Of a DNA stretch of 26,881 nucleotides, positions 2,180 through 10,628 are shown in pieces (the first letter of the stretch is position 1; each line of letters starts with the position of its first letter). A program made the translations under genes and the position numbers. The stretch is taken from the IMG/VR virus record IMGVR_UViG_3300020470_000175, positions 1 to 26,881 of that record. One strand, given 5' to 3'. This DNA is from a virus. Below the pieces are notes generated by a model, which made no database searches, was not told where the DNA came from, and saw only the letters and a list, made by a program, of their open reading frames with translations.

Positions 2180-3559
2180 TTAGTAAATGTCCTTCATAAC
2201 AGAGTCTCTAGTCAAAACAAGTTTGCTAGTCAAACCTTCTTTCGTGAAAGTGTGTGTCACTGCGGAAATTAGATACTTTCCACTATATCTTAGGTCTTCT
2301 TTAAGAGACCTTTGCTTTTCTTGGGAGGCTGGTATCCTCACCTTGATAAGCATTCCTGCCGTTAGAGCAGAATTACCAGGTACAACTATTGATAGTTGTA
2401 TTGCCTGTAGTAGATTATAGCGTGAAGCAGCATATTCTGCAACTGCCATTGTATCATCGTCAGGATTTGTTCCGTTTTCAGGATCATCAAGATTTGCTTG
2501 GTTTTTTAAACCAGGCAATGCTCTGTATTTAATCCTTGTCGCACCATCAAATTCTTCAAGGTCAGAAGGCAAATCATAAGGTTTTCTTTTATGTATTGTA
2601 TCTGCCTTAGTAAACACTTGTGCGTATGATAAAACCTTAGGACTATGAATAGTCCCTGCAGGGGCAGTATCTTCAGTTGAGCCAGTATCAGTAGCATTAG
2701 AGTTTGTAGGACGTGGCATAGATATGCTGATAGCAGCAGTCTTAAATGTCCCCATTCTCATGTTTCTAAGATGGTTGGCTCTGTCAGGGTAGGATATCTT
2801 CTCAATGGTATGATAACCATTGTTAGGAGGGTCATTACCCTGTTGTATATAAGTATACTCAAATATTTCTGTGCCTTCGGGTACTCCACTACCTAAACAT
2901 AATGCGTCTAGTGATTTAAAATTAAACCCATATCTATTCTCGTAAAATAAAAATCCAGATTGTTTTCGTGATGTCTTTCCACTGCCACTACCCTCAATAC
3001 GTGTCACTTTATCAGACATATATGAGATTGCTTCTACTGGTCTCCAATTTGTAGATATAAATGATATCTTAGAATGTGGCTCAAAGTTAACATCCTTAGT
3101 CTTTTCTTTAGGTGCTGAAAGATATTCCTTACATATATGCTTGGGGATGTGGTCAACATCTTTTCCTGCAGGTCCGAATGGTTTGAATACTTTATTCATT
3201 TCATTTGGATATGCTTCTGGTGATGTGCAATGTAAGATATACAACTGCCCTCTCTCACTCTTGATTGTGCTACCAATTTTAAATACTCTAACTTTAAATT
3301 CTAATGACTTCTTATCTCCATCTAAAGTGCTACTTTCAGTAGTTAGTTTGACAGTAATAATCTCACCACCTATCAACAATTTGTTGAAGTCGATAGCATC
3401 AATCATAGTAAAGTCACACCTAATAAAAGGTGAGTCAATAGATTCAGTGTAATTAAAATCAATTACAAGGTCTCGTATATCATACGTTGGAGGGTCACCA
3501 CTAGGTATGGCAATCTCCATTTTATCTAATGTAAATAACCGTGATTTTCTATCTGCCAT
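2180..3559 (-). CDS. 27: gp27-like baseplate hub subunit
   Basis: A 459-aa protein. In T4, gp27 forms a trimeric ring in the baseplate hub that holds gp5 and lets the tail tube dock. This protein opens with a gp27-like first domain (residues about 10-130: IRDLVIDFNYTESID, an FDMIDA-type strand, and EFKVRVFKI). A PNEMNKVFKPFG loop follows, then FISTNWRPVEAISYMSDKV and a Gly/Ser-rich FLFYENRYGFNFKSL segment. A long acidic Asn/Thr/Pro-rich insertion lies at about 280-330. The C-terminal half ends with a strand-rich KYLISAVTHTFTKEGLTSKLVLTRDSV, which is typical of gp27/gpD-type hubs. It is longer than T4 gp27 (391 aa). Its ATG overlaps the stop of the preceding 850-aa gene in a TAATG. The gene order (tape measure, hub 27, spike 5) supports the call. 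Confidence 0.8.
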   Translation of the reverse strand: MADRKSRLFTLDKMEIAIPSGDPPTYDIRDLVIDFNYTESIDSPFIRCDFTMIDAIDFNKLLIGGEIITVKLTTESSTLDGDKKSLEFKVRVFKIGSTIKSERGQLYILHCTSPEAYPNEMNKVFKPFGPAGKDVDHIPKHICKEYLSAPKEKTKDVNFEPHSKISFISTNWRPVEAISYMSDKVTRIEGSGSGKTSRKQSGFLFYENRYGFNFKSLDALCLGSGVPEGTEIFEYTYIQQGNDPPNNGYHTIEKISYPDRANHLRNMRMGTFKTAAISISMPRPTNSNATDTGSTEDTAPAGTIHSPKVLSYAQVFTKADTIHKRKPYDLPSDLEEFDGATRIKYRALPGLKNQANLDDPENGTNPDDDTMAVAEYAASRYNLLQAIQLSIVVPGNSALTAGMLIKVRIPASQEKQRSLKEDLRYSGKYLISAVTHTFTKEGLTSKLVLTRDSVMKDIY

Positions 3560-6111
3560 TACATTAACTCCGCTACATCGCCATTAAATTCAGATACCAA
3601 ACCAAATCTGGTTATGAGATAAGGGTCGGCAGCACCAACAGAATCTATAGGGATTGGTATTTCATACTGACCACCAGGCGTTGACATTTGCACTGGAGGA
3701 GCAGTTTGTGTTGGTGCTTCTATGACCTGATTCTTCTTACCTAATAACTCATTTTTCTTATCTATAAGTGCTAACTTAGCTTGCTGAATTAAGTTACTAG
3801 CATCACTCTTTAAGTTTTTTGCACCTTCCAATATTGTCTGGTCACCACGACCATCAAAGTCGTATTGGTTACCTGTGTATGCATCTGCTAATCCTAAGTA
3901 AATTCTCTTCCATCCTGTAGCTTCACCTTCTTCATTTCTTTCTGCTGTTATGAAGTTGGTAAAATTCTTCTTCAACTTCTTAACTGTCTCTTGTCGTTGA
4001 CGCATATGCGTCTCTTTTTGTGCATCACTGGTGCGTAAGATATTAATTAATCTATCTTGATTCATCTGCACTTGACCCGCAATCACATCATCAATAGAAG
4101 TGCCCTCAGGTAATTGCTTTAATATTTGTTTTTGATGTCTTCTAAGACTCTCTATATCAATAGCATATCCTTGACCCATGATTTGATTCTCAATATTCAC
4201 ATTACCTATAATCTGCTCTACTTCACCACCCTCTGACTTCTGAGGTAATGCATATCCACCCTGCATTGCTTCACGAAATCTTCGTGATGTCAGTCCGCTA
4301 TCTTTTTTAGTTGCAGGAGTATTGTATGGCACAACAAATGCACCACCACTCGCCATCTTAGACCCAACCCACTCTAAACCATGACCAATAAATGCTGTGC
4401 TTTTACCACCGTCTAGTGATACAGGGTATCCAGACATAGGACCGTTTATCCATCCACCTTTTGCAAATTTGGGTGGAGCAACTTCACCACCCTCTGATAA
4501 GTTGTCTTCTAAGATTTTAAGTTTCTTCTTAGCAAAAGCTAACTTATATCCATCTTTATCAGGTATTTCACCTGATTTCAATTTTGCAATTCTATCCTGA
4601 GTTAATTCAATTTGTAATTTTATGTCTGGTTGTTTTTTAGTTTCCTCCACACCATCCGCAGTTGGTTGAGTCTCACCAGAACTTTGTGATGATGATGACA
4701 GTTTTTCACCAGTTTTTGAAGAAGATGTTTCTTCTTCATCTTCTTTATCTGCTTTAGGTGCAAAGAATTTCAATACTGCCGTTAATGCTTTTAACCCCAT
4801 GAATAAGGGTCCAAACATTACATCAATACCTATTCCTAGAATCTTCTCAATCAATGGCATATGTGGCTCAATAAAATCTAAGACTCCATTCATAACACCA
4901 CCAAATGCTTCAAAGAATCCATTTAAACTATCTTTAATAGGCTCCATTATCTTATTAAATGTGTCACCTACCATTTTAAAGAATCTACCTAGTGGCTCCA
5001 TTATAGGTTTCAACATCTTACCGATGCCTGCTCCTGCTTTTCCACCAAGTGCTCCTCCTGCTGCACCCAATATCATTCCCATGCCAGGAATACCAGTTGC
5101 CTCTCCCAACTTAGCACCCAACATACTACCGCCTGCAGCACCTATTCCACCACCAACAACCTCTTCTACATCCCCACCAGCTGCTTGGATTGAGAAAGCT
5201 GTGCCTAATCCCGCACCTACACCTAATCCAATTCTTGCAAATTTATTACGTTGGAATGCACGCAAGGCTTTCATACCCTTGCCTGCCTTAAACATTCCTG
5301 CTATAGATTTACCTAATGTGCCGATTACCCATGAGAATGCACGGACTGTGCCAATAGGATTTCTAAGGAATGCCATTGTCGCAAACAATGGTGCTGCAGC
5401 AATGACAAATTGAAGAGCACCAAACAATCCTTTAAGACTGATAGGATTCTCTAAGAAACTTATAAGACCATTGAATGCATTTCCTGCTAGGAAAGACGAT
5501 ACACTCAATACAAACTTACCCACTGATGCTAAAGTTTTAGCAAGTCTTTGTATTGCTTCTGGATTCTTTGCTATCCAGTTTAATGCAGCAAATCCTACTA
5601 CTATCTTAAGGAAGTAAGTAGATAGTCTTACTAATCCAGAAAATAATCCACCAAACGTTTTCTTAGACTGCTCTTTGAATGACTTACCTATTCTCTTGAA
5701 TAGAGATGGTTTACCTACCTCTGAATCTTTTTCTGCTTCATCTCTTTGTTGTATCTTACGTCTTCTTGCTTCATCTTTTACTTTTATCTTTTCTCTTTCT
5801 TTATCTTCTTTTAATGCATCTTCTTGGACTTTCTCTATCTTATTTGCCTGCTTAATCTGTTTAGCAACTGCTAACTTCATAGAAGAAGTCATGCTCTGCA
5901 TACCTAGTGCAATACTATTAATAGATGCACCTAAAGAGTTTATACCACCTATTACTGCTTGGAAACCTTTTCCCATATCACCCTGCATCTTACCCATCTC
6001 ATCTGCAGATTGTAAGGGTGTATATTTCTTGCCACCAGTAGACCCCTTATAAGATACCATCTTATAAAGAGCTGCCTTAGGGACTTTTATACTAGCGGGA
6101 TTAGTTGCCAT
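3559..6111 (-). CDS. Tape-measure-like tail protein, paralogue B (no peptidase)
   Basis: An 850-aa protein that looks like a tail tape measure or internal tail protein. Residues 40-140 are helical and charged (coiled-coil-like, rich in Lys and Glu). About 150-260 are hydrophobic segments (LVRLSTYFLKIVVGFAALNW, then KNPEAIQRLAKTLASVGKF). About 290-370 are Gly/Ala-rich (GIGAAGGSMLGAKLGEATGI), and MEPLGRFFKM and further amphipathic helices follow. The C-terminal third holds a Gly-rich block (FAKGGWINGPMSGYPVSLDG) and a helical region. It aligns by eye with the adjacent 955-aa protein over two long blocks, so the two look like tandem duplicates. It overlaps the 955-aa gene by 11 nt and gp27 by one. 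A T4 gp29 role is inferred from position, not from detectable identity. Confidence 0.65.
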   Translation of the reverse strand: MATNPASIKVPKAALYKMVSYKGSTGGKKYTPLQSADEMGKMQGDMGKGFQAVIGGINSLGASINSIALGMQSMTSSMKLAVAKQIKQANKIEKVQEDALKEDKEREKIKVKDEARRRKIQQRDEAEKDSEVGKPSLFKRIGKSFKEQSKKTFGGLFSGLVRLSTYFLKIVVGFAALNWIAKNPEAIQRLAKTLASVGKFVLSVSSFLAGNAFNGLISFLENPISLKGLFGALQFVIAAAPLFATMAFLRNPIGTVRAFSWVIGTLGKSIAGMFKAGKGMKALRAFQRNKFARIGLGVGAGLGTAFSIQAAGGDVEEVVGGGIGAAGGSMLGAKLGEATGIPGMGMILGAAGGALGGKAGAGIGKMLKPIMEPLGRFFKMVGDTFNKIMEPIKDSLNGFFEAFGGVMNGVLDFIEPHMPLIEKILGIGIDVMFGPLFMGLKALTAVLKFFAPKADKEDEEETSSSKTGEKLSSSSQSSGETQPTADGVEETKKQPDIKLQIELTQDRIAKLKSGEIPDKDGYKLAFAKKKLKILEDNLSEGGEVAPPKFAKGGWINGPMSGYPVSLDGGKSTAFIGHGLEWVGSKMASGGAFVVPYNTPATKKDSGLTSRRFREAMQGGYALPQKSEGGEVEQIIGNVNIENQIMGQGYAIDIESLRRHQKQILKQLPEGTSIDDVIAGQVQMNQDRLINILRTSDAQKETHMRQRQETVKKLKKNFTNFITAERNEEGEATGWKRIYLGLADAYTGNQYDFDGRGDQTILEGAKNLKSDASNLIQQAKLALIDKKNELLGKKNQVIEAPTQTAPPVQMSTPGGQYEIPIPIDSVGAADPYLITRFGLVSEFNGDVAELM

Positions 6112-8968
6112 TCGTTAGCATTCCGTTATTGTTAGAGACATAAGAAATTACAGGTTGGTCTCCTCCAACTGTATTTATTATGGGTTTCTCAATAGTTTGA
6201 GTTACGAAAACAACATTAGACTCTAATTCTTCATCAGCATCCCTCTGTGCTTTAGATAATAGAGCGTTATCGTTGAATGTAAATGTCTGTTGAGTATCAT
6301 CTGAAGTGTTAATCATTTCTGACATCTTCTTCAAGTCACCCTCAAGACTGCCTAATAGTTTCTCTAGAGGAGTGCCTCCTTCCTTCTCATCGTCGTCTCC
6401 TGTTTTAGTTTTAACTGTTTTAATCTTCTTATCTTTACCAGTAAACACACCCAATGGGTCCCACCATGCTTTTTTCTTTGCCTCTTCCTTCTCTGCTTCT
6501 TCTGTCTTAGGTTTTGTAATCTCTTTTAGACCTCTAGGTGCTCTCCACATCCAAATATCATTCTCAGGTGACTGGTCTTGGAATATATCTCGCTTCATAA
6601 GATAAGACTTACCTACACCATCAGTCTTACTGTCTTGTGAGTTTTTCTTGAGCCAAGTGCCACCCATACCTAATTGACCAAAGGGGTCATGCACAATCCA
6701 ACCTAACGGTGAATAACCTGTTAGCATAGCCCAGTGACCAGTGCCTGTATACTTCATCCCAAGAGGGACTGGGTATCCATCATCTATCTCTTTTCTTAAG
6801 TTATCATACCCCTGCACACCAGTCTCTAACTTACTATCAATGCCATAATCTTTCAATGCTTTCTGTTGTGCTGCAGCATCAGTTGACGTGCCATACTTAT
6901 GTCTTGTCTTATTGTATTCTTTTGTAGTTACAGTATTACCTGTCAAATAACTCGTCCACATTGCCATGACAGTTGAATAGCATTGTGTATCTCCTTTACG
7001 ACCTTCGGGGTCATCATCATTTGCTCTCTGATTATAGTAGGGCACAGTCAATACCTTACCACCCGACTCAAACTCCTGTAACCTCTGAGATGGATTATGT
7101 CCTGCAATCCTCATCAGTGTGTCGAAACAACTGACTAAACCACCTTCTGCAAACTGTTGCTGTTTAAATGCTGTTGCTAACTCATCAAACTGAGCACCGA
7201 CATGTCCACCCCATGCCTTGCTGTCGCCAGAAAACAATCCAGCTGGGTCCCACCATGCCTTATTTTTCTTATCTTTTTTTGCGTTGTCACCAGTAAAGAC
7301 ACCACCTACGTCCCACCATGCCTTATCACCTGATGCAGTCCTCTCTCCATCAAAGTCAAACAGGTTTAATGTCAATGCATCTGCAAACCCTGCTACCACA
7401 CTTTTTGGATTCAACAATCGTTTAGCATTTCTGACAATAAACCCTACCGTCTTACCTATTACTTTAAATCCTGTGGCAAAAACAAACCCATAGAAATCTC
7501 TTAATGGTTTTGTGTAGTCCCACAGCATCTTACCAAGAGTGCCTAAAACCTCAAATAAGTCACCAAGTAAAGGTCCTAGTTTGTCAGCGAAAGGTTTATA
7601 TAATGCCTTTGCCAACTCCATATACATTTTAAATGCTCTACCTAAAGGCTCAAATATAGGTTGTGCCATCTTACCAAATGACTTTCCTACCCACTCTCCT
7701 AAGAAACCACCAATAGCACTACCAATCATAGGTGCGAAAGGTCCTAAGAATGGTGCAACTGCTGTTAATGCTGCTGCTCCTGCAATACCACCGACTGCTT
7801 GACCTACACCCGCACCGACTGCCTCACCCGCTTGCTCTCCTTGTGCTAGTCCTCCTGCAATACGTGTGACACCACCAATAATACTAAGACCGCCTGCTAT
7901 CTTCCCTGCACCAACTTTCTTGGCAAACTTACCAAGACCTTTACCCATCTTATTACGACCAATCCTACCTCTCTGCTGTAGTTTTGCTAGAGGACCCTTC
8001 TTCTTACCTTTAAACTGTGTTTGAAATCTATCCTTAAATTGTTTTGAATATAGGTCAGACTTCATTCCTCTGCCTGCTTTCGCAGCACGTTTGGAATCAG
8101 CTCTCTGAGCTGACTTTTGCATTGCCTGATATTCTTTCTCTGAGTATATGACTCCTGTTTTCTTATCTCTATACCCTTTTATTCTAGCTTTACTAGATGC
8201 TCTCAATTCTTCTGTGGTTTCTGCAGTCTTATCAAATATGCTATTGATACCTTTGACATCCTGTATCAATTTCCATGGCATTATAAGATACTGAGCTGTC
8301 CTTAATGCTGCAATACCACCAATTATCTGGAATACTCCGACAAAACGACGCATTCCTCTTTCTACTATATTCTTATCACTAAGGTCTCCAAATGTATTAC
8401 TGAGACCACCTAATACACCACCAACACCAAATGATGCTATTTTAAATGCGAATTTACCTAGAGTAAAGAAGAATTTAACTAATTTCGTTACTTGCTCTGG
8501 GTTTTTCTGTATAAAATCTAATGCACCATATATCACAAACCATTTGACCATAGTGCCTAAAGTCTTACCGAGCATCCCGATAAAACTTTCTATAGGTTTA
8601 CGAATTGTCTTAAACCTCTTATCTGCCTCCTTTGCTCCTGCCTTTACACCAGATTCTGCAGCATCTTCTGCTTTCTGTCGCTTCTTCTTCCCAAACATCC
8701 TTTTAAGACGTTTGTTAAAATCCTTAAAAAATGTATTCTTCTGTCTCTGTCCTTTTTTGACAATTTTTACCTGTCTTACCCCTTGGTCAGTGAGATATTC
8801 TGCTTGAAACTTTAATATAGTCGACTGTTGATAAACGTTTTGACCAATATTGTCAACAACACCCCCTGCACGGTTGATACCTTTTCTGAGCTCGTTAAAA
8901 GCGTCTCCCACCTCAGTCTTGGAGGAAAACTTATTGATAGTAACAAATTTTCTTAGTTTTGCTGCCAT
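6101..8968 (-). CDS. Tape-measure-like tail protein, paralogue A, with C39-like cysteine peptidase domain
   Basis: A 955-aa protein. The N-terminus is charged and helical. Hydrophobic segments lie near 130-240 (TMVKWFVIYGALDFIQKNPE). Then come a Lys/Arg-rich region, a Gly/Ala-rich membrane-like region at about 355-430, and QPIFEPLGRAFKMYMEL. Residues about 635-800 read as a C39-like papain-fold peptidase (peptidase_C39_2 type): VPYYNQ, Cys663 in DTQCYSTVMAMW, His745 in GHWAMLTGY, and Asp761 in VHDPFGQ. The motif KAWWDxxGxFTGD occurs three times (about 565-595 twice and about 840). As the gene right after the gp26/61-aa chaperone pair, it sits where tape measures normally lie. The peptidase could cut cell-wall peptides during DNA entry or mature tail proteins. 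The domain call is good; its role is inference. Confidence 0.7.
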   Translation of the reverse strand: MAAKLRKFVTINKFSSKTEVGDAFNELRKGINRAGGVVDNIGQNVYQQSTILKFQAEYLTDQGVRQVKIVKKGQRQKNTFFKDFNKRLKRMFGKKKRQKAEDAAESGVKAGAKEADKRFKTIRKPIESFIGMLGKTLGTMVKWFVIYGALDFIQKNPEQVTKLVKFFFTLGKFAFKIASFGVGGVLGGLSNTFGDLSDKNIVERGMRRFVGVFQIIGGIAALRTAQYLIMPWKLIQDVKGINSIFDKTAETTEELRASSKARIKGYRDKKTGVIYSEKEYQAMQKSAQRADSKRAAKAGRGMKSDLYSKQFKDRFQTQFKGKKKGPLAKLQQRGRIGRNKMGKGLGKFAKKVGAGKIAGGLSIIGGVTRIAGGLAQGEQAGEAVGAGVGQAVGGIAGAAALTAVAPFLGPFAPMIGSAIGGFLGEWVGKSFGKMAQPIFEPLGRAFKMYMELAKALYKPFADKLGPLLGDLFEVLGTLGKMLWDYTKPLRDFYGFVFATGFKVIGKTVGFIVRNAKRLLNPKSVVAGFADALTLNLFDFDGERTASGDKAWWDVGGVFTGDNAKKDKKNKAWWDPAGLFSGDSKAWGGHVGAQFDELATAFKQQQFAEGGLVSCFDTLMRIAGHNPSQRLQEFESGGKVLTVPYYNQRANDDDPEGRKGDTQCYSTVMAMWTSYLTGNTVTTKEYNKTRHKYGTSTDAAAQQKALKDYGIDSKLETGVQGYDNLRKEIDDGYPVPLGMKYTGTGHWAMLTGYSPLGWIVHDPFGQLGMGGTWLKKNSQDSKTDGVGKSYLMKRDIFQDQSPENDIWMWRAPRGLKEITKPKTEEAEKEEAKKKAWWDPLGVFTGKDKKIKTVKTKTGDDDEKEGGTPLEKLLGSLEGDLKKMSEMINTSDDTQQTFTFNDNALLSKAQRDADEELESNVVFVTQTIEKPIINTVGGDQPVISYVSNNNGMLTNGN

Positions 8969-9153
8969 CAGAGAGACATACGATTATTTTCTGCTTTTTG
9001 TCTTCGCTCTTCCTCTTGGATGAATGCCAAAAGCAAATTAACGTAAACATCACGCTCCCATGGCATCATATTCTCTAGCTCAGTTAAACTATACTTATGA
9101 TGCTGCATTAATGCGAAGTTAGTCTTGTAGTAATTCTCAAGACTGTCATGCAT
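8968..9153 (-). CDS. Small ORF after gp26 (gp51 position; probable -1 frameshift extension of gp26)
   Basis: A 61-aa protein read from ATG 9153 (MHDSLENYYKTNFALMQHHK). The middle contains YSLTELENMMPWERDVYVNL, a hydrophobic/aromatic pattern like the small second half of tail-assembly chaperone pairs (lambda T-type). The C-terminus is charged. It occupies the place of T4 gene 51 (order 26-51-27). The ORF is open upstream of its ATG back to the gp26 slippery site, so a -1 shift would give gp26 residues 1-233 followed by RVAL and this ORF, about 298 aa in total. The stop overlaps the ATG of the 955-aa gene (TGATG). It could be made alone, as a fusion, or both. The gp51 name is by position only, so I leave the symbol empty. 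Confidence 0.65.
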   Translation of the reverse strand: MHDSLENYYKTNFALMQHHKYSLTELENMMPWERDVYVNLLLAFIQEEERRQKAENNRMSL

Positions 9154-9158
9154 CAATG

Positions 9159-9863
9159 CTACTCGAAAAAAGACGCTAACCCTTCTAAAACTACTTCACT
9201 TTTAACTTTGGTCTTGGGGTTATATACCTCAATAGTGTGTGATAGTTTGGGCATAGTTTCAAAGAAATTCTGTATCAATGCGAATTGCTCAGAATTTAGA
9301 TTCTCTAGAAACTCTAGTGCTTCTTTATGGGAGAAGGAATCATAAACTTCTTCTTCATCATATACTTGGTCAATACACTTAGCTGCCATCTCAAAGATGT
9401 CATCTACAGTGGGATTCTCACTCATATTCTGTTGAATAAACGCATCCAATGAAGGATACTTCATTACAATACCAATCTTGTCATCAAGTTGAATCTTCTT
9501 GTCATGACCATCGGGGACTTGCACATCTACTTCCTGCAAAGGTACTTTGACAGCAACAGATGTCTCGTCATCATCAGGTGCGGTAATCTTAAATTCACTA
9601 ATCTCACCAACTGCAACCGCTCTAATGCGGAGGAAGATGTATTCAATCTCAAAAGTAGCGAGGTTGTCTACATTGCCTTTTAGATTTGTGCAGTTTTTGA
9701 TAATAGTCTTAACCGCTTTTACCATCTGCTTGTTGTCTTGCGACTCCATAGCAAGGTAAAGTAATTTCTCTTCTTTTACAAGAAAAGGTCTATACGTAAC
9801 TTTTGTACCTGTAAGAGGTAACTCCAACTCATACTCAGGTATGGCTAATTTAGGTAATGGCAT
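9159..9863 (-). CDS. 26: gp26-like baseplate hub assembly protein / tail assembly chaperone
   Basis: A 234-aa protein. It opens MPLPKLAIPEYELELPLTGT, followed by KVTYRPFLVKEEKLLYLAMES, the signature opening of the T4 baseplate gp26 family. Helical repeats ending SEQFALIQNFFETMPKLSH, a short strand and ASFFE close it. T4 gp26 (208 aa) is needed to build the central hub. The protein is acidic, with a strand-rich centre (residues 70-130) and a helical end. It starts at ATG 9863, with a TAAATAA element (9884-9891) just upstream at the end of the previous gene. The last codons, TCT TTT TTC GAG TAG, place a -1 slippery heptamer six nucleotides before the stop, described separately. The family call is firm. 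Confidence 0.82.
   Translation of the reverse strand: MPLPKLAIPEYELELPLTGTKVTYRPFLVKEEKLLYLAMESQDNKQMVKAVKTIIKNCTNLKGNVDNLATFEIEYIFLRIRAVAVGEISEFKITAPDDDETSVAVKVPLQEVDVQVPDGHDKKIQLDDKIGIVMKYPSLDAFIQQNMSENPTVDDIFEMAAKCIDQVYDEEEVYDSFSHKEALEFLENLNSEQFALIQNFFETMPKLSHTIEVYNPKTKVKSEVVLEGLASFFE
9165..9171 (-). other. Candidate -1 programmed ribosomal frameshift site (T TTT TTC)
   Basis: On the minus strand, gp26 ends GCG TCT TTT TTC GAG TAG. The heptamer T TTT TTC is phased as X XXY YYZ, the canonical -1 slippery form. After a one-base backward slip the next codons read CGA GTA GCA TTG ATG CAT GAC, which is exactly the frame of the following 61-aa ORF. No strong downstream stem-loop is obvious by eye. 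Confidence 0.6.
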
Positions 9864-9883
9864 AATGAAACATTATTATAATT

Positions 9884-9891
9884 TTATTTAG
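9884..9891 (-). promoter_or_regulatory. CTAAATAA late-promoter-like element before gp26
   Basis: The 24-nt gap between the tube-fold gene and gp26 contains CTAAATAA followed by AAATTATAATAATG on the minus strand. It differs from the T4 late box at one position and recurs near several other gene starts here. It overlaps the upstream stop codon, so the TAA is partly explained by that. Confidence is limited. Confidence 0.35.
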
Positions 9892-10628
9892 ACACCCACA
9901 GAGGCAACATCTTTCTGCTCTAATACAAATCCAAGTTGAGTTGCAACGTTTTCAAAATTAGTCACTTTGATGTCTCCTTGTCCTACTTTTCCAAATGCTA
10001 CACTACGATTGCCTATCTTGTCAAATCTATATCTCTCAAAGAAAAAGTTTACATTGAGCATCATTAAGTCAGTAGGTCCGTTAGTAAGTGTCTGCTCTGA
10101 CATGTCATATGGGAATGCACCATACATTTGCCATACAGCAGATGAGCGATTTAATCTTGTGCCTTTATACTTGCCACTTGGGTCTTCATAGACTATATTT
10201 GACCCATTTTCCCATTTAAGGACTGATATTGTAGATGTATACTCTTCATATAATCCTACTCTATTTTCTGAATCTGATGCTGTGCTCTGCATCCAAGTCT
10301 CAAAGAAATCACGATGATATTGGTCTCTGGTTACTATAAATTCTACCTGTAAATCTCCAAATGCTGTGTTAGTGGCAAATTTACGAGATACACCAATATC
10401 TCTTACTTCACTTGTTGTTACTCTTCTGCCAGGCACAGTTACACTACCCGCAAGGTAATTCATAGCATCAGCATGCTCCACAGTGCTTCTAGCAGTGCCA
10501 AAGGTTTCTTCTTTTAGCAATACAGACGGTGGTATAGGAATTCTAACTTCAAAAAGATTAGACTTAGCTGGGGTTTTATATCCAGACCCGACTATATCCT
10601 TAAAACGAGCAAATGAATTAGCTGACAT
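9888..10628 (-). CDS. Tail-tube-fold protein (gp54 tube initiator or gp19-like)
   Basis: A 246-aa protein. It has the features of T4-type tail-tube relatives: an N-terminal helix (FARFKDIVGSGY), a first strand (SNLFEVRIPIPPSV), a central loop and strand (YLAGSVTVPGRRVTTSEVRD), then FGDLQVEFIVTRDQYHRDFF, where the acceptor helix of tube proteins begins. It ends in VNFFFERYRFDKIGNR strands. Proteins of this family form the tube (gp19), its initiator (gp54) or its cap (gp48). It lies next to gp26 and downstream of gp4, and gp48 is nearby on the other strand. This favours the initiator gp54, but a tube monomer or another paralogue is possible. The ATG overlaps the stop of the 156-aa gene (TAATG). 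Confidence 0.6.
   Translation of the reverse strand: MSANSFARFKDIVGSGYKTPAKSNLFEVRIPIPPSVLLKEETFGTARSTVEHADAMNYLAGSVTVPGRRVTTSEVRDIGVSRKFATNTAFGDLQVEFIVTRDQYHRDFFETWMQSTASDSENRVGLYEEYTSTISVLKWENGSNIVYEDPSGKYKGTRLNRSSAVWQMYGAFPYDMSEQTLTNGPTDLMMLNVNFFFERYRFDKIGNRSVAFGKVGQGDIKVTNFENVATQLGFVLEQKDVASVGV

Follow-up and report, generated by a model that had tools for sequence, protein, structure and literature searches.

The gp26 locus of the window

The viral record IMGVR_UViG_3300020470_000175 of the IMG/VR database, analyzed here over its full length of 26,881 nucleotides and referred to as the window, comes from a marine phage of the T4-like kind and carries a gp26 gene and a small downstream open reading frame (ORF) whose junction had been proposed, in a preliminary description made from the sequence alone, to be a site of -1 ribosomal frameshifting. 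The gp26 ORF (9863-9159, minus strand, as are all features of this locus) encodes 234 amino acids; it resembles short tail-assembly chaperones of the TAC-N kind, and matches the family PF12322 (E = 1.5e-68; 231 bits, against a curated cut-off of 24.5) and phrog_150 (E = 1.1e-76). Its 3' end reads GCG TCT TTT TTC GAG TAG, where the heptamer T TTT TTC (9171-9165) is phased as X XXY YYZ and is followed one codon later by the 0-frame stop TAG (9159-9161). As the preliminary description had observed, the -1 frame is open from this point into the second ORF; a backward slip of one nucleotide leads into CGA GTA GCA TTG ATG CAT and onward, for 65 codons, to a TGA that ends at position 8968. Joined to this extension (8968-9165), gp26 would form a fusion protein of 298 amino acids, the length that had been estimated before.

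The extension appears to be the gp51-like C-terminal domain of a long chaperone, with a match to phrog_634 (E = 9.2e-28). In the usual annotation, the same stretch is a separate ORF of 61 amino acids with its own ATG (9153-8968), which is the fifth codon of the -1 frame; the program-made ORF list of the window starts it at a TTG instead, giving 62 amino acids. A match of the small ORF to a HaeIII endonuclease family (PF09556, E = 0.0016) lies under the family cut-off, and was taken as chance. Within a single sequence, the heptamer at the gp26 junction is weak evidence and not striking: among the 8,366 codons in the 38 genes of the window, X XXY YYZ heptamers in the proper phase occur 29 times, and the junction is unremarkable because in five of these genes one lies no more than 10 codons from the stop.

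Conservation and RNA context of the slip site

The gp26 gene and the small downstream ORF are very probably a single gene that is expressed through programmed -1 ribosomal frameshifting, a reading based on the conservation of heptamer and phase and on constraint at the nucleotide level; it is conservation that decides, not the single sequence. The persistence of both heptamer and phase among relatives had been set beforehand as the comparison that could refute the proposal, and the proposal withstood it, even among very distant relatives. All 80 of the nearest IMG/VR relatives (51-79% identity) have T TTT TTC phased as in the window with the stop one codon later, and their -1 frame leads into a homologous ORF, to the extent that each contig covers it. 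The slip site also occurs in the distant Stenotrophomonas phage Ps15, Acidovorax phage ACP17, Aeromonas phage avDM12, a KVP40-type Vibrio phage and Synechococcus phage MA10, and a T TTT TTT variant of the heptamer is found in Methylophilales phage Melnitz-2 and in Sinorhizobium phage phiM12. A representative set of 87 non-redundant loci (<80% identity) was assembled from cyanophages and from Sinorhizobium, Stenotrophomonas, Aeromonas and KVP40-type Vibrio phages, the Vibrio, Aeromonas and Stenotrophomonas groups being thinly sampled with 2-3 loci each from scans with distant queries. In this set the heptamer is TTTTTTC in 79 loci, TTTTTTT in six, TTTTTTA in one, and missing in one (Vibrio phage K361); representatives with <40% identity retain the slip site in 18 of 19 cases. 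Conservation in 86 of 87 representatives rules out a chance heptamer at the end of gp26. The 0-frame stop is always near the heptamer but at no fixed distance, since it follows after one codon in 68 representatives, directly in 13, and after 2, 3 or 8 codons in the remaining four.

The third positions of the three heptamer codons are the most constrained among the 227 codon columns of gp26 in the 87 representatives. The first T of the heptamer is present in 86 of them, although the residue encoded by its codon is Ser, Asp, Asn, Ala or Gly; the second heptamer codon is TTT in 87/87, and the third is TTC in 80/87. Elsewhere in these genes, phenylalanine is encoded by TTT 539 times and by TTC 394 times, and T occupies 38% of third bases. 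Because neither phenylalanine codons nor third bases are so biased outside the heptamer, selection at the protein level does not appear to explain its constraint. As a negative control, another of the five heptamers close to a stop in the window, the T TTA AAC in phase where gp33 meets gp59, was absent in 4/4 relatives that were read, and was accordingly taken as a chance occurrence rather than a slip site; here a single codon separates the heptamer from the stop of gp33 (16944-16699, minus strand), and the following gene (16702-16334, minus strand) overlaps gp33 in the -1 phase.

The slip site has candidate RNA signals on both sides. Upstream, the relatives share an element resembling a Shine-Dalgarno (SD) sequence, mostly GAGGG, 8-14 nucleotides 5' of the heptamer, where the mean pairing energy with the anti-SD sequence is -6.8 kcal/mol, compared to about -1 across most of the surroundings. 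A glutamate codon within this element is GAG rather than GAA in a ratio of 51:19, vs. 708:1274 elsewhere (p = 7e-10, an optimistic value since kin were counted separately). The copy in the window, GAAGGG (9180-9185, 9-14 nucleotides 5' of the heptamer), is among the weaker ones with -5.1 kcal/mol. Downstream, the RNA at positions 12-75 folds more stably than shuffled sequences (mean z -2.45), in comparison to mean z values of -0.03 upstream and -0.56 further downstream. In the window, this region forms a predicted hairpin of -23.1 kcal/mol (z -3.26; 9105-9159) with an outer helix (9159-9150/9114-9105) and an inner helix (9144-9138/9127-9121). Among 15 members of the window's clade, 83.5% of the cells in the alignment of this hairpin can pair, vs. 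25-43% in slid controls, and six of its pairs have changed on both sides, as expected for covariation; the predicted downstream folds vary from clade to clade. The frameshift signal of Escherichia coli dnaX consists of an SD-like sequence upstream, the slip heptamer A AAA AAG and a hairpin downstream; the gp26 signal has the same three parts but a different heptamer, in an unrelated gene. Since known sites such as dnaX have them, the SD-like element and the hairpin probably stimulate slipping at gp26 as well.

Alternative explanations and proposed function

If the T run were incidental, the small ORF could be a separate gene whose translation begins at its own ATG or through coupling after termination of gp26. 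The ATG at codon five of the -1 frame of the window, the separate gp51 that databases annotate, and the stop/start overlaps that are common in this genome (some of them also in the -1 phase) would fit such an arrangement, but the start codons of the relatives make it improbable: in 26 of 85, the -1 frame lacks any ATG, GTG or TTG ahead of codon 11 (numbered from the slip site) and of the conserved core; in 31 of 85 the first ATG appears at codon 17 or later; and only 34 have an ATG at the position used in the window. No SD sequence was found at a usable distance before the ATG of the window, and the consensus of the -1 frame, FFr.al.H..Le, extends from the slip site through the would-be start region. 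Separate genes would also leave the synonymous constraint on the heptamer unexplained. On account of the 26 relatives that have no start before the conserved core, the second ORF appears to be no independent gene, and initiation at its own ATG is ruled out as the conserved route to its product; of the earlier suggestion that the ORF might in addition be translated from its own ATG, the codon itself is there in the window, while independent initiation is not a conserved feature. In cyanophage records of the type of GenBank KJ019083, NC_021072, HQ634175 and NC_062735, the second ORF is often without an annotated feature, and in others, for example P-TIM40, its start is arbitrary; such annotation is to be expected if the second ORF lacks its own start.

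Still less probable is transcriptional slippage, in which RNA polymerase would insert an extra U at the T run, and ribosomes reading the altered mRNA without any slip would produce the fusion. There are six or seven consecutive T, and one added U leads to the same frame; yet six T are short for efficient polymerase slippage, the run is mostly six T long, is closed by a conserved C and keeps a constant codon phase, and the upstream SD-like element and downstream hairpin suit a slipping ribosome. A sequencing or assembly error that interrupts one continuous in-frame ORF has a negligible probability and is already refuted: homopolymers are error-prone, and two near-identical Stenotrophomonas phage records differ in their T run, but the same two-frame layout recurs in >140 distinct records from isolates and metagenomes. 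In this record pair, the slip run has five T in L216 (about 2745-2760) and six in L215, and the end of gp26 is altered; the shorter run reflects either a sequencing error or a genuine loss.

According to the frameshifting model, most ribosomes would stop at the TAG and release the short chaperone of 234 amino acids, and a fraction would slip back one base on U UUU UUC, aided by the upstream SD-like sequence and the downstream hairpin, and continue with CGA GUA GCA UUG to produce the long chaperone of 298 amino acids. Slipping at the gp26 site is itself a prediction, and so is its rate. The predicted tryptic peptides of the window sequence include SEVVLEGLASFFR for the shifted product and SEVVLEGLASFFE for the unshifted C-terminus; the junction stretch S-F-F-R-V-A-L contains a trypsin site. 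In a further predicted peptide, VALMHDSLENYYK, the first three residues lie before the ATG of the second ORF. By analogy to gpG/gpGT of lambda and to T4, where gp26 would be the short form and gp51 a long form fused at the gene level, both products may act in tail assembly without being retained in the virion; the shared domain could hold the tape-measure protein, and the C-terminal domain could recruit the tube or hub protein.

The chaperone role of gp26 and of the long product is suggested by gene position, by T4 gp51, which is needed for assembly but not found in the particle (PMC3004832), and by lambda gpG/gpGT, reviewed as a tail chaperone frameshift pair (PMC5009743). The gp26 gene directly follows the tail tube gene (9888-10628, minus strand; phrog_45, E = 2e-38) and precedes a long gene where a tape-measure gene would be expected (6101-8968, minus strand; 955 amino acids) whose ATG overlaps the stop of the extension. 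This 955-residue protein has a C39-peptidase-like domain near residues 640-762 (PF13529, E = 3.2e-9), and a second long gene (850 amino acids) comes next.

Several observations weigh against the interpretation of the locus as a recoded chaperone gene. The tape-measure match of the 955-residue gene product is weak (phrog_973, E = 9.5e-7), and the genes in this position in other genomes are either not assigned a function or weakly tape-measure-like. The AlphaFold2 model of gp26, calculated with an alignment of IMG/VR rows, has a predicted local distance difference test (pLDDT) score of 87.9, and its top PDB chain in Foldseek is the HK97 tail chaperone 2ob9, with a non-significant E-value of 0.52; a sequence profile searched against PDB and a fold search with a model of T4-type gp51 returned nothing relevant. 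Finally, Vibrio phage K361 holds both ORFs in the -1 phase in the absence of a canonical heptamer; its junction (locus L091, ~3060-3120) reads CTT TTC AAG TAA TGG, with the stop overlapping an ATG. The K361 lineage may use coupled initiation in place of frameshifting, or a non-canonical slip site.

Relationship to T4 gp26 and gp51 and to other known systems

In T4, gp26 (208 amino acids) and gp51 (249 amino acids) both belong to PF12322 and are encoded by divergent genes. The fusion protein and T4 gp51 are connected by a single hmmsearch alignment (fusion 71-281 to gp51 60-245) that runs across the junction and includes the C-terminal domain, and the match of the fusion profile to T4 gp26 ends where the short product ends; phrog_634 was found both in the extension of the window and in T4 gp51. 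Judging from these alignments, T4 gp26 and gp51 are paralogs, gp26 corresponding to the short and gp51 to the long product, and the link from T4 hub assembly proteins to lambda-type tail chaperones that the preliminary description had drawn holds at this level. Genomes of the T4 type have two PF12322 genes and no T-run heptamer (in two records a third gene is a split or truncated piece), in contrast to the frameshift genomes that were checked, which have one PF12322 copy each. The window, a fragment record of 26.9 kb, has one PF12322 gene and no T4-like separate short and long genes, and the records that we take to be KVP40 and Aeh1 (244,834 and 233,234 bases) are also of the one-gene kind.

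One PF12322 copy with a slip site as opposed to two copies without it indicates that recoding and gene duplication are alternative means of producing this protein pair, as far as can be read from genome sequences; the two would be a natural pair of solutions for one stoichiometry problem, which is testable since T4 genetics exists. Recoding is likely older than duplication because of its breadth. The full scenario, in which U UUU UUY frameshifting is ancestral across the T4 superfamily, including the KVP40- and Aeh1-type Straboviridae, and the T4-type lineage later duplicated the gene, with gp26 keeping the stop and gp51 becoming a fixed in-frame fusion, is slightly preferred here. These results bear on the statement in a 2016 review that the tail frameshift is conserved "except T4"; if recoding is indeed ancestral, T4 would cease to be a real exception.

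The connection between T4-like and lambda-type chaperones has already been published for T4-like phages, to judge from later papers that cite the identification of their tail chaperones by Vladimirov, Gautam and Davidson (2022; Virology 566:9-15). The PRFect study cites this work for T4-like phages in which frameshifting is replaced by a pair of genes, a short one and a longer fusion (PMC10885494), and a second paper credits it with poly-T frameshift signals in the TAC-N genes of T4-like phages (PMC12846349). Since both the chaperones and the poly-T signals are thus credited, the window locus is not a new principle but an unannotated case of a published one; the gain consists in breadth, cis-acting signals and annotation, with the SD-like element, the hairpin and the missing start codons as added detail. 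In hundreds of marine phage genomes, a function is suggested for the genes labelled "baseplate hub subunit" and "hub assembly catalyst"; these two genes would be one recoded gene, the second half of which is often given an arbitrary start in annotations or omitted from them.

Among the known systems, T4 gp26/gp51 shares with the window the PF12322 family, the short/long pair and a long form with the same small domain at its C-terminus; it differs in having two divergent genes without a slip site, as opposed to one gene with a -1 shift. The gpG/gpGT pair of lambda, an example of the tail-chaperone frameshift conserved in long-tailed phages, a rule that the sources on it state with T4 as the exception (Xu, Hendrix and Duda, 2004; PMC5009743), has a comparable layout of overlapping ORFs between the tail tube gene and the presumed tape-measure gene, and a -1 shift at a canonical heptamer near the stop of the first ORF; the window differs by its U UUU UUY heptamer and by its larger first domain (234 amino acids), and the likeness is one of arrangement. 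The Pakpunavirus and Vandenendeviridae locus (PMC12846349) has a conserved T-rich GTTTTT slip motif at the end of the short chaperone gene and an open -1 frame that is usually annotated as a separate hypothetical gene, in phage families other than that of the window. In phage 0305phi8-36, gp143 and gp144 (PMC2147016) represent, as in T4, two paralogous genes that replace the frameshift, in an unrelated lineage.

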